Below, one piece after another: positions 1,356 to 7,244 of a stretch of 23,071 nt of DNA; the stretch's first letter is position 1, and each line of letters begins with the position of its first letter. A program made the translations under genes and the position numbers. The stretch comes from a virus: positions 1 to 23,071 of the IMG/VR virus record IMGVR_UViG_3300050015_000155; one strand, written 5' to 3'. The notes under the pieces were generated by a model that was not told where the DNA came from, made no database searches, and saw only the letters and a list, made by a program, of their open reading frames with translations.

Positions 1356-2075
1356 ATGGAAGGTTGGATTAAATTACATCGGAAAATAGCTCAACACTGG
1401 ATTTATAAAAATTCAGACTATGTAAAAGCATGGATTTGTATTTTAATTACAGTAAATTACGAAGATAAAAAAGTACTTATTCACGGTGAATTGATCGAGT
1501 GTAAACGAAGCCAGAGCCTTTTGAGTTTATTAAGTTGGGCCAAATTATTTGGTAAAAACTGGACAATTCAGAAGGTCCGTACATTTTTCGAACTATTAAA
1601 AAGTGATTCAATGATTCACACGGAAGGTCTACCAAAAACAACACGGTTAACAGTTTGCAATTATGACGATTACCAGACCGATCAACAGACAGATAACACA
1701 CAGATAACATTCAAACAACAGACAGATAACACACAGATAACAACAACTAAAGAAGTTAAGAAATTAAGAAGTAAAGAAGTAAAGAATAAAGAAGAGGAGT
1801 TGATTAAAGAAATTGATATTTTACCAGAATTCAAAGAGCCTTTTAAAAACTGGTTACAATTCAAAAGATTACGCGGTGAATCATACAAGGATAAACAGTC
1901 AACTTCACTGGCATATAAAAAACTTCTGAAACTTTCGGGAAATAATTTAATAAGGGCCGTTCAAATAATCGAGGAATCAATGGCAAATAATTACGCTGGT
2001 TTATTTCCTTTGAAACAAGAAAAGAACGGATCGCAGCCACAAAACCAAACAATAGAAGTAAGATTTGAAAAATGA
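1356..2075 (+). CDS. Replisome organiser / DnaD-like replication initiator
   Basis: A 239-residue protein. Residues 1-105 match the N-terminal winged-helix pattern of phage replication proteins of the DnaD/replisome-organiser type: GWIKLHRKIAQHWIY, a Trp-rich helical core, then a segment ending RLTVCNYDDYQ. Residues about 106-150 are a low-complexity linker with two copies of QQTDNTQIT followed by a Lys/Glu-rich run. The C-terminal part (about 155-225) is helical, with a KRLRGESYKDKQ segment that resembles the C-terminal helical region of such initiators. These proteins bind the phage origin and help load the helicase. The next gene is a DnaB helicase, overlapping by 4 nt (ATGA). The linker DNA carries iterons, as in phages whose origin lies inside the initiator gene. 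The family call rests on pattern and context. Confidence 0.75.
   Translation: MEGWIKLHRKIAQHWIYKNSDYVKAWICILITVNYEDKKVLIHGELIECKRSQSLLSLLSWAKLFGKNWTIQKVRTFFELLKSDSMIHTEGLPKTTRLTVCNYDDYQTDQQTDNTQITFKQQTDNTQITTTKEVKKLRSKEVKNKEEELIKEIDILPEFKEPFKNWLQFKRLRGESYKDKQSTSLAYKKLLKLSGNNLIRAVQIIEESMANNYAGLFPLKQEKNGSQPQNQTIEVRFEK
1677..1800 (+). other. Candidate phage replication origin inside the organiser gene
   Basis: The segment combines iterons (1689-1742) with a strongly purine-biased, AT-rich stretch (about 1746-1800) built from repeated AAAGAAGT/AAGAAAT-type units. This is the layout of an initiator-binding cluster beside an easily melted region. It lies within the initiator gene and just before the helicase gene, a placement known from lambda O and from several phages of Gram-positive bacteria. 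Proposed from architecture only. Confidence 0.5.
1689..1742 (+). repeat. Four phased 10-bp iterons (ACAGATAACA)
   Basis: Exact copies of ACAGATAACA start at 1689, 1700, 1722 and 1733. Spacings are 11, 22 and 11 bp, so all lie on one face of the helix. Two larger direct repeats of 27 bp (1683-1709 and 1716-1742) contain them. A degenerate copy, ACCGATCAACA, lies at 1677-1687. The 33-bp period is 11 codons, so the repeats also give a repeated peptide in the host protein. Confidence 0.85.
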
Positions 2076-3484
2076 AACGAATTAAAGAGCGTCCGATAAT
2101 TAATCTGGAACAATACGGCAAAGTACCACCACAGGCCGTTGATGTGGAAGAAGCAATTTTGGGAGCCTTTATGTTGGAGGCGGACGCTTATCTAATGAAC
2201 CCGGTAAATCCTGAAATGTTTTACAAGGATCAACACCGGAAAATTTGTGAGGTTATTCAGAAAATGTCAAAGGGGCAAAAGAAGATTGATTTACTCACGG
2301 TTTGCAGGCAAATTAAAGATGATGGAATTTTAGAAGAGATTGGCGGGCCGCTTTATATAGCGCAACTCACAAACCAGGTTTCAACCGTTGCGCACCTGTC
2401 GCATCATATTTTAATACTGAAGGATAAATACCTTCGCCGGGAAATGATCCGGATGTCGTCAGAATTACAATCAGGGGCCTATGATGAAAATATAGACCTT
2501 TCGGAAATTATCGAATCAGCTCAGGAAATCTTCATGAAACTTTTGGGCGATGAAATGGAAAGCGTTAAATCGTTTACCGAAATTTCAGAAAGCATATCGG
2601 AAACAATCCAAAGCAACGCAACCGCAAAAATTACTCACACTGGAATAACCACGGGTTTTAAGAAGTTTGATCAGTTCGCGCACGGGATGCAGCCGGGTGA
2701 CCTGGTTGTAATAGCAGGGGAGAGTTCGCACGGTAAAACAATGTTAGCGACAAACATAGTAACACACGCCGCAAAACAAGGTTATCCTTGCGACGTTCAC
2801 AGCTTGGAGATGTCAGGGGTGCAACTTGTAAGCCGGATTATTTCGATTGAGTCAGGAATTTCTGCAAAAGATATGCTATTCCAAAGATTAGGGCCGGAGT
2901 CAATCACTCACATAAATTCACATATCTCAAAAATGGCCGGGTTGCCGATTTACTTTGATGACAAAAGTACGGCATCGGTTCAAAAGATTTGCGCTTCGAT
3001 CCGTAAAATGGTTCTGAAATTTGGGGTTAAACTTGTGATGGTAGATTATCTTCAACTCGTTTCAGGGGACGCAAGTGCGGGCCGGGAGGAGGAGATCGGA
3101 CAAAATGCAAGGATCTTTAAAAACATCGCAAAGGAGTTAAATATTGTGGTTATCCTGTTATCTCAATTTAGTAACTCAGAAAGCCACGTCCCGAACACAG
3201 GCAGACTTCGCGGGTCTGGTCAAATCAAAGAAGCTGCAGACCTTGTAATTTTGGTATGGATACCGGAAATAAACAATATCATGTGGGTTAAGCGCGAAGA
3301 CGGAACAGAGGAAAGTATGAAGGGTAAAGCTGGTATAATCGTCGGTAAAGGCCGCAACACGGGAACAATGGATTTTACTGTTAATTGTGACAGGAATATA
3401 AACCGGATGTGGGATATTGAATCGGAGTTTTTTGAACCAATTAACCGAATTGAATCAGTAAAAAGAGAAGATGATCCATTCTGA
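2072..3484 (+). CDS. dnaB: Replicative DNA helicase, DnaB family
   Basis: A 470-residue protein of usual DnaB length. An N-terminal all-helical domain (PPQAVDVEEAILGAFMLE at 19-36) precedes a RecA-like ATPase domain from about residue 190. The Walker A is G216-T223, reading GESSHGKT. The Walker B is in LVMVDYLQL, followed by ILLSQFSNS and by LRGSGQIKEAADLVILVW, which matches the conserved LR-SG-I--DAD segment. The C-terminal GKGRNTGT corresponds to the K-R-G-TG arginine-finger region. It would form a hexameric helicase that unwinds the phage origin 5' to 3'. Overlap of 4 nt with the organiser gene implies coupled translation. S, S and H inside the P-loop replace the more usual R-P-x, so the sequence is divergent but all essential residues are present. 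Confidence 0.93.
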   Translation: MKRIKERPIINLEQYGKVPPQAVDVEEAILGAFMLEADAYLMNPVNPEMFYKDQHRKICEVIQKMSKGQKKIDLLTVCRQIKDDGILEEIGGPLYIAQLTNQVSTVAHLSHHILILKDKYLRREMIRMSSELQSGAYDENIDLSEIIESAQEIFMKLLGDEMESVKSFTEISESISETIQSNATAKITHTGITTGFKKFDQFAHGMQPGDLVVIAGESSHGKTMLATNIVTHAAKQGYPCDVHSLEMSGVQLVSRIISIESGISAKDMLFQRLGPESITHINSHISKMAGLPIYFDDKSTASVQKICASIRKMVLKFGVKLVMVDYLQLVSGDASAGREEEIGQNARIFKNIAKELNIVVILLSQFSNSESHVPNTGRLRGSGQIKEAADLVILVWIPEINNIMWVKREDGTEESMKGKAGIIVGKGRNTGTMDFTVNCDRNINRMWDIESEFFEPINRIESVKREDDPF

Positions 3485-6117: not shown

Positions 6118-6596
6118 AACCAGTAAAATTATCAGAGTTAAAAGTCGGCGATCAGGTTTACGATATAAAAACAAATCATATTGGACATGCAACGTTTTTT
6201 CAGGTTGTGAAAATTAAGAGTGGATCAATCTATTTAAAACCTGTCGGAGGGTTCAATGATTATCTTGTTGCGGATGATGGGAATGTAAGATTTTCAATCT
6301 TTTCAAAAGAGGATTTTTACAAACTACAACTTTCAGATTTAACCTTCGACCACGCCGACAAATATGGACAAATCAGAATTCCCAACCCGGACGCTCCCGG
6401 ATCATGTAAGGTATTCACGAAAGTCCGCAGGGACTGTTTTAACGAGTTTGTAGCTGAAATGATGGTAAGATACAACAATCCGGTAATAAGCGTTCAGTGG
6501 GGACGTGTGACTATCCACAGCGAGAAATTTACAGCAGATGTTGAAAGGCAAAATAAAGCGTGCCAAAGTTGGTGCGATCAAAATACAGCAGAATGA
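6114..6596 (+). CDS. Protein of unknown function with SH3-like N-terminus
   Basis: A 160-residue protein, started at ATG 6114 in an ATGA overlap with the coiled-coil gene; an upstream TTG in frame is not needed. The beginning KLSELKVGDQVYDIKTNHIG is the pattern of a small beta-barrel (KVGDxV..) seen in SH3-like and translation-factor-like folds. The rest is strand-rich with Trp and Cys near the end and no catalytic signature. Context gives only membership in the early small-gene chain. Confidence 0.6.
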   Translation: MKPVKLSELKVGDQVYDIKTNHIGHATFFQVVKIKSGSIYLKPVGGFNDYLVADDGNVRFSIFSKEDFYKLQLSDLTFDHADKYGQIRIPNPDAPGSCKVFTKVRRDCFNEFVAEMMVRYNNPVISVQWGRVTIHSEKFTADVERQNKACQSWCDQNTAE

Positions 6597-6817
6597 AACT
6601 AAAAATGGAACAAATTGAAAAACTGGAAGAAGCCGCAAGAAAGCACTCAGGTGTAATGGGAAAGCAATTATCATTTTTTCAGGGTGGTAAGTTTGGAATA
6701 CAACTGCAATGCGGAAAGATTGAGGAATGGGCAGAACAAGCGAAATGGAATGCTGAAGAGGGAAATGTAGTTATTTCATTTGAAGCATTAAAACAATTTC
6801 TAAATCAAACGAAATGA
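6593..6817 (+). CDS. Small protein of unknown function
   Basis: A 74-residue protein, started at ATG 6593 in the ATGA overlap with the preceding stop; an upstream GTG exists but would overlap more deeply. It ends with NVVISFEALKQFLNQTK. The pattern 'ISFEALKxFL' recurs two genes later as 'ISVEALKKWV', suggesting these small proteins share a C-terminal helix. No known domain. Confidence 0.6.
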   Translation: MKLKMEQIEKLEEAARKHSGVMGKQLSFFQGGKFGIQLQCGKIEEWAEQAKWNAEEGNVVISFEALKQFLNQTK

Positions 6818-7050
6818 CAGAACTACAAATAGAAGAAGCCAGTTTGAACGCTGAATATCCGCTTCAATTTATTGAAGGTGCCAAATGGTGCAGAGACAAC
6901 GACCAGACGCTGCAAAAGCTGAAGTAGTTGAGGGATAAATATGTTAATAAAATTAATTCAGAATGGCAAAGAGAAGAGACAAGCTCACGAAGAAAAGCCA
7001 TATATTCCTTGATTGTTTCAGAACTTAATAACATAATAAGCGAATCATGA
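6814..7050 (+). pseudogene. Small gene interrupted by an in-frame TAG (amber)
   Basis: The frame opens at ATG 6814, in an ATGA overlap with the previous gene, and meets TAG at 6925-6927 after 37 codons. The same frame then continues without another stop for 40 codons to TGA 7048-7050, which makes an ATGA overlap with the next gene. Both halves look like one helical protein (..DNDQTLQKLK, then LRDKYVNKINSEWQ..), and glutamine at the amber position would fit the helix. A single CAG to TAG change would explain the interruption. Either the gene is broken or TAG is read through at this site. If truncated, the product is 37 residues (6814-6927). Function unknown. Confidence 0.6.
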
Positions 7051-7244
7051 GTATACCAAATAAGATTTACACCCCTGATATGTCAGGATGGGCGCAATGG
7101 ACAAAAAAAGGAATTGGCCAAATGAATCATGAATATATTTCAGTCGAAGCACTGAAAAAGTGGGTAACCGAAAACACTCATTACTGGGAACATTCAGGAG
7201 TTGAGATTATTAAACCAGATGAACTTTTAAAATTTATCGAATGA
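7047..7244 (+). CDS. Small protein of unknown function
   Basis: A 65-residue protein rich in Trp and Lys (SGWAQWTKKGIG, EALKKWVTENTHYWEH) ending KPDELLKFIE. It starts inside the stop of the amber-interrupted frame and overlaps the next start by ATGA. The helix ISVEALKKWV resembles ISFEALKQFL of the gene at 6593, so the two may be diverged relatives. No known domain. Confidence 0.6.
   Translation: MSIPNKIYTPDMSGWAQWTKKGIGQMNHEYISVEALKKWVTENTHYWEHSGVEIIKPDELLKFIE

Follow-up and report, generated by a model that had tools for sequence, protein, structure and literature searches.

Contiguous 11-bp iterons and a low-stability tract within a phage initiator gene: a candidate replication origin

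Initiator gene, iteron array and low-stability tract

The window, i.e., the whole stretch of DNA that was analysed, is one entire IMG/VR record of 23,071 bases. It is linear, probably a fragment, and carries genes on a single strand only. Similarity of its terminase to counterparts in Bacteroides and Flavobacterium phages (among others), and of its capsid protein to that of a Croceibacter phage, makes a Bacteroidota host likely for this virus.

Features of the locus are listed in Table 1. In profile searches, the N-terminal domain of the initiator matched phrog_2514 ('DnaD-like helicase loader', E 1.6e-26) and phrog_186 (E 1.5e-9), and its C-terminal part gave 'replication initiation O-like' PHROG matches (phrog_678). 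phrog_2514 was also matched by 40 of 42 aligned relatives. For the DnaD domain (TIGR01446 / PF07261) in the C-terminal part, the window initiator gave no Pfam or NCBIfam match, and the domain was present in 2 of the 42 relatives. Phage_rep_O (PF04492) was not matched by the window initiator and was matched by one of the 42 relatives, at E 0.0029. No RepA_N match was obtained for the window initiator in Pfam at E ≤ 0.1, and RepA_N was not among the families matched by the 42 relatives.

An AlphaFold2 model, for which named-phage rows were left out of the alignment, divided the protein into a winged-helix N-domain (residues ~1-107; pLDDT 96-98, with the winged helix at residues 10-107), a disordered linker (~108-135; pLDDT ~50) and a helical C-domain (~155-212; pLDDT 83-89). 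A fold search with this model revealed generic winged helices only, with a best E of 0.013 and nothing significant; matches to entries described as 'Structure of initiator' and 'N-terminal domain of DNA binding protein' were weak (E 0.25-0.36).

The 3′ end of the initiator gene overlaps the start of dnaB by 4 nt. A DnaB or DnaC-like gene was found within 3.5 kb downstream in 53 of the 91 relatives with enough flanking sequence. Upstream of the replication genes, positions 460-858 hold an HNH endonuclease-like gene (phrog_2118, E 3e-18). Positions 71-457 encode a small protein whose N-terminus resembles a zinc ribbon and which has a weakly matched DnaA-C-like helix-turn-helix (E 0.014); this product showed no sign of a part in the origin.

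Table 1. Features of the initiator locus (window coordinates)
Feature	Position	Strand	Evidence or remark
DnaD-like phage replication initiator gene, 239 aa	1356-2075	+	PHROG profiles, AlphaFold2 model
Degenerate upstream 11-bp unit CCAGACCGATC	1673-1683	+	In phase with array; within Tandem Repeats Finder (TRF) array 1674-1742
Iteron 1 AACAGACAGAT	1684-1694	+	Motif search, TRF
Iteron 2 AACACACAGAT	1695-1705	+	Motif search, TRF
Iteron 3 AACATTCAAAC, degenerate, fills apparent 22-bp gap	1706-1716	+	Slot also occupied in L001, L104
Iteron 4 AACAGACAGAT	1717-1727	+	Motif search, TRF
Iteron 5 AACACACAGAT	1728-1738	+	Motif search, TRF
Iteron 6 / junction unit AACAACAACTA	1739-1749	+	L104 AACAACAAAC(AAG), L001 AACAACAACTA: same position and register
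C-free, purine-rich, low-stability tract (type II), candidate DNA unwinding element	1748-1823	+	TRF, nearest-neighbour energy
DnaB-type replicative helicase, presumed client of initiator	2072-3484	+	Pfam DnaB_C 1.3e-56, DnaB N domain 1.3e-21

Inside the disordered linker of the initiator lie six contiguous 11-bp units in the register AACA(N7) (1684-1749), preceded by a degenerate unit. The four exact copies of ACAGATAACA reported in the original prediction were all found (1689, 1700, 1722 and 1733), and no others occur in the 23 kb. Their predicted spacings of 11, 22 and 11 bp hold for the exact copies; however, the array is not gapped, because the 22-bp interval holds a degenerate copy. The further degenerate copy placed at 1677 lies in phase at 1678 instead. 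The proposal that all copies face the same side of the helix is roughly right, but a drift of ~17 degrees per repeat is calculated at 10.5 bp per turn. The location in the linker of an initiator-like gene directly upstream of DnaB was confirmed by the domain model and the 4-nt overlap, and a purine-rich repeat tract of low calculated stability, predicted to be melt-prone, does follow the array.

With one mismatch allowed, ACAGATAACA had 7 matches in the window against 2.0 expected, and 7 was reached in no shuffle. Tandem Repeats Finder independently reported a period of 11 with 6.2 copies at 1674-1742. The lag-11 match count of 39/55 was the top short-period signal (lag 5-59) in the window; the next best lag-11 count elsewhere was 27. 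As a synonymous null, the protein was held fixed and codons were redrawn from the gene's own usage in 20,000 draws. Both the lag-11 matches (p = 0.00085) and the four exact copies (p = 0.0007) exceeded these protein-preserving shuffles. A step of 11 bp does not preserve the reading frame: adjacent units encode different peptides (TDN and then QIT), and the period therefore does not come from a protein repeat. These findings indicate that the repeats are a DNA-level feature. Part of the array probably arose by tandem duplication of 33 bp (11 aa).

The tract at the end of the array is the sole C-free stretch of at least 52 nt in the 23-kb window. Its nearest-neighbour energy places it in the lowest 1-2% of the window for stability, and its first part (1748-1794) consists of TAAAGAAG-like units with a period of 8 in 6 copies (Tandem Repeats Finder). 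A DnaA-trio identity was considered for the tract, which has a three-base rhythm, and was rejected because polarity and sequence do not fit the Bacillus subtilis element. A mismatch search and Tandem Repeats Finder revealed no second iteron array in the window, and the window contains no exact DnaA box TTATNCACA. Cumulative GC skew rises throughout this 23-kb linear fragment, whose genes are all on one strand.

Conservation of tract and period as DNA

Most of the relatives found carry another form of the tract, type I, AC(A/T)AACAA(G/T)AATGATAA(G/T)AATG, which encodes T-N-K/N-N-D-K/N-N. Scanning viral contigs for an exact 22-bp tract gave at least 120 stretches. Among the matches listed, all were in the same frame; for genes whose start was available, the tract lay around residue 123-215. 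There were 97 distinct upstream sequences (a few of them from the type II scan), with differing 11-bp arrays before nearly all tracts.

A scan for all 256 encodings of TNKNDKN was then compared with the codons used. All 71 strict family genes (71/71) have AC(A/T)AACAAGAATGATAAGAA(T/C), essentially 2 of the 256 encodings; the encoding can also be written AC(A/T)AACAAGAATGATAAGAAT, with one gene having a final AAC. Seventeen further canonical hits, missed by the strict filter, have mostly the same surroundings, and the remaining hits have mixed codons. Lysine in the tract is AAG in 142 of 142 cases, versus ~28% of lysine codons elsewhere in such genes. The C-free run from the tract start has a median of 41 nt in the family versus 11.6 nt in synonymous shuffles; in the window, the C-free top strand after the array extends for 76 nt. 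Type II is rarer than type I: 25 bp of the window tract recur exactly in four contigs (L050-L053), and the encoding AAAGAAGT(A/T)AAGAATAAAGAA is used in 8/8 true family genes (L275 and L309 passed the filter and were left out as non-initiators on inspection).

The 11-bp period was likewise kept while the repeat changed. Across 34 homologues, some of them near-identical, the mean synonymous z was highest at lags 11 (1.85) and 22 (1.52). In 92 distinct genes, nearly all of type I, mean z over the array reached 2.47 (lag 11) and 2.20 (lag 22), and control stretches flanking the array in these genes gave lag-11 values of 0.41 and -0.09; the 11/22-bp period exceeded synonymous shuffles in the linker only. 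Thirty distinct homologues were found by protein similarity alone. Of these, 16 had p < 0.05 at lags 11 and 22 combined, versus 1-4 at control lags; the other 14, including the closest (L001), had no significant 11/22-bp signal. The feature is thus common in the family, not universal.

Individual relatives illustrate the change. L001 (69% identical in the best segment) has AACA every 11 bp six times, with most other positions changed. L104 (47-48% identical) has AACAAACAGAC/AACACGCAAGT/AACATGCAAAG/AACAAACAAGT/AACAAGCAAGT/AACAACAAAC in the same register, followed by a different tract. The iteron is GAAACGCAAAT in a Sphingobacterium homologue (L002) and GAACCGATGAT in a Petrimonas-type one (L003). 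In L007 the repeat at this place has a period of 24 bp instead, and in L019 and L030 one of ~12 bp. In the Sphingobacterium element, a short winged-helix-only gene (L002:5989-6315) directly precedes the full initiator (6333-7205). The Bacteroides finegoldii plasmid 67 (L374, 125 kb) carries a homologue directly upstream of dnaB without linker, iterons or tract; such elements may use another origin.

A comparison of DNA repeats with protein drift in homologues had been proposed as a check, and in it the period persisted while both repeat and peptide changed. Homologues lacking the repeats had been named as refuting evidence. Some edge members of the family do lack them (for example L374; no 11/22-bp signal in L018 and L039), and in the set found by protein similarity alone the period was significant in 16 of 30. 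By sequence criteria, iterons followed by a predicted easily opened tract, with different repeats, recur in well over a hundred further phage sequences from several bacterial phyla. The retention of period and tract as DNA in relatives supports the original prediction of a candidate in-gene phage origin.

Domain exchange and known in-gene origins

In 133 genes, iteron similarity rose with N-domain identity (rho 0.34, against a maximum of 0.13 in 500 permutations) and not with C-domain identity (rho 0.02); N- and C-domain identities were themselves uncorrelated (rho -0.01). For example, L185 and L209 match L121 at 95-97% over the C-domain, whereas their N-domains are 32% identical and the iterons differ. 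Among family genes, C-domains swap at the tract. Such tracking of the N-domain and not the C-domain would be seen if the iterons were bound by the winged helix and the C-domain served as an interchangeable adaptor. Part of the correlation could come from linkage because the iterons adjoin the N-domain, yet the C-domain is almost as close. The type of the downstream helicase gene agreed in 94% of pairs of nearest C-domain neighbours, 82% of pairs of N-domain neighbours and 66% with shuffled labels; because some shuffles reach these values, the association of C-domain with helicase type is suggestive only. C-domains like that of the window are also found attached to seemingly unrelated N-parts (L367, L371 and L372). 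A C-terminal module (..SMANNYAGLF..) is common to L366-L372 and the window (1800-2075), again with N-parts that look unrelated, which suggests a widely traded helicase-contact domain.

In-gene origins as a kind are known from lambda O, SPP1 gene 38, 80alpha ORF20 and pSK41 rep. Ori-lambda has iterons and an AT-rich element inside the initiator gene, and its repeats are 18-19 bp. The window differs in its 11-bp repeat and protein family; in the C-part of its initiator, resemblance to lambda O is limited to 'O-like' PHROG hits. Like the window, Lactococcus phage r1t orf11 and Staphylococcus phage PVL orf46 have tandem units of 11 bp in the linker, and next to these comes a tract that is AT-rich and almost devoid of C. 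Their iterons (GGAACCGAAAT and CAACATCAAAA, respectively) are unrelated to that of the window. PVL orf46 is a direct homologue of the window initiator, whereas r1t orf11 has a different N-domain; origin work on r1t has reportedly been done. The 11-bp period is absent from TP901-1 rep and 80alpha gp20, and therefore not every DnaD-like phage initiator has this arrangement.

In SPP1, the direct repeats of oriL lie within gene 38 and next to an AT-rich unwinding element, and they are bound by gp38 (PMC6316719). By description, the window resembles this system in its direct repeats and AT-rich element within the initiator gene and in its phage DnaB-family helicase (PMC6316719). SPP1 differs in having a second origin, oriR, and a separate loader, gp39, whereas the window fragment has one iteron array. 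For 80alpha, autonomous replication in cis of the ORF20-21 module was shown, and ORF20 could not be complemented in trans; the authors read the origin as embedded in ORF20 (PMC5499656), like the arrangement considered here, and the 80alpha sequence record annotates a putative origin inside the initiator gene. Besides lacking the period, 80alpha differs in having a separate DnaC-like loader. The statement in the original prediction that several other phages carry the origin inside the initiator gene is in line with SPP1 gene 38 and 80alpha ORF20 (PMC6316719, PMC5499656), the latter publication also citing the lambda case. The pSK41 rep gene has four central Rep boxes, a dispensable central linker and a winged-helix N-domain, and plasmid pPR9 has a phage-type N-domain and origin region in place of those of pSK41 (PMC5703833). 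RepA_N replicons of the pSK41 type are thus like the window in their central boxes, linker, winged-helix N-domain and exchangeable N-domain plus origin; they differ in being plasmids, not phages, and the window initiator lacks a RepA_N Pfam match.

A search of the literature revealed no Bacteroidota phage example, no shared 11-bp grammar, no DNA-conserved tract across phyla and no linkage of iterons to the N-domain, nor any publication printing the tract sequence; older lactococcal phage papers may contain parts of this.

Interpretation as an origin and alternatives

We propose, with a probability of roughly 85%, that 1673-1823 is a replication origin inside the initiator gene, at which the gene's own product would bind the iterons, the tract would be opened and DnaB would be loaded. 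Binding, melting, helicase loading and use as an actual origin are inferred by us from the established in-gene origins of SPP1, 80alpha and pSK41. Initiator protomers would sit next to each other on the contiguous iterons, each bound by its N-terminal winged-helix domain; because the 11-bp sites are contiguous, protomers would be packed head to tail, about one per helical turn. In the simplest model, the resulting helical winged-helix filament would strain the duplex and bend or unwind the adjacent tract. The C-free, A/G-rich tract would then open, and the C-terminal domain would deliver the phage DnaB, encoded immediately downstream, to the exposed strand. Because the record is a fragment, a second origin may be present elsewhere.

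An operator is the first alternative: the initiator would bind inside its own gene and throttle transcription or translation of the replication operon, with replication starting elsewhere. Winged-helix domains are often repressors, in-gene roadblocks are known, and iteron initiators often autoregulate. However, an operator would require neither 5-8 contiguous units nor, downstream of them, a low-stability tract in which each codon is fixed across phyla, and the array is more than 300 bp inside the gene. Moreover, in related phages with the same gene position there is origin evidence at that site (PMC5499656, PMC6316719). We regard an operator in place of an origin as improbable; the two roles may coexist.

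Three further alternatives appear very unlikely. The tract could be kept since it mediates exchange of initiator C-domains between phages, as the swaps at the tract and the uncorrelated domain identities would allow; but such a recombination junction leaves the 11-bp iterons, their link to the N-domain and the low duplex stability unexplained, and conservation for exchange alone needs group selection. More probably, an origin is conserved at the tract and C-domain exchange there follows as a by-product. The top, non-significant fold matches of the initiator model are TubR winged helices, which bring to mind a centromere-like site for segregation, or an incompatibility site, with a winged-helix protein bound to it in the manner of TubR on tubC. 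These matches cover the generic winged-helix fold only; no partition ATPase or GTPase was recognised among the predicted genes and proteins examined, and the neighbours are dnaB and other phage genes. Finally, the repeats could be a protein feature alone, a low-complexity Q/T/N linker with codons repeated by slippage: the linker is indeed low in complexity and predicted to be disordered, and tandem duplication probably contributed to the array, but this cause is largely refuted by the frame shift at each 11-bp step, by synonymous shuffles that fail to reproduce the period in the window or the family, and by tract codons fixed against the gene's own usage.

The origin reading can be extended to the family. 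We lean slightly towards the view that a winged-helix domain, its 11-bp iterons and the codon-by-codon conserved tract form a portable cassette shared by phages of Bacteroidota, Bacillota and Vibrio, in which the iteron is rewritten together with the N-domain as a readable protein-DNA code, and the C-domain is exchanged in keeping with the helicase or loader in use. If this is right, the origins of many otherwise unannotated phages would be readable from sequence alone, by looking for a C-free tract after a DnaD-like winged-helix domain and for 11-mers before the tract. Natural pairings of an initiator domain with its iteron, well over a hundred of them, would become available for working out how these domains read DNA, and a simple rule would follow for which phage origins exclude each other. 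The cassette could also be built into replicating plasmids for Bacteroidota and similar hosts in which such plasmids are scarce.
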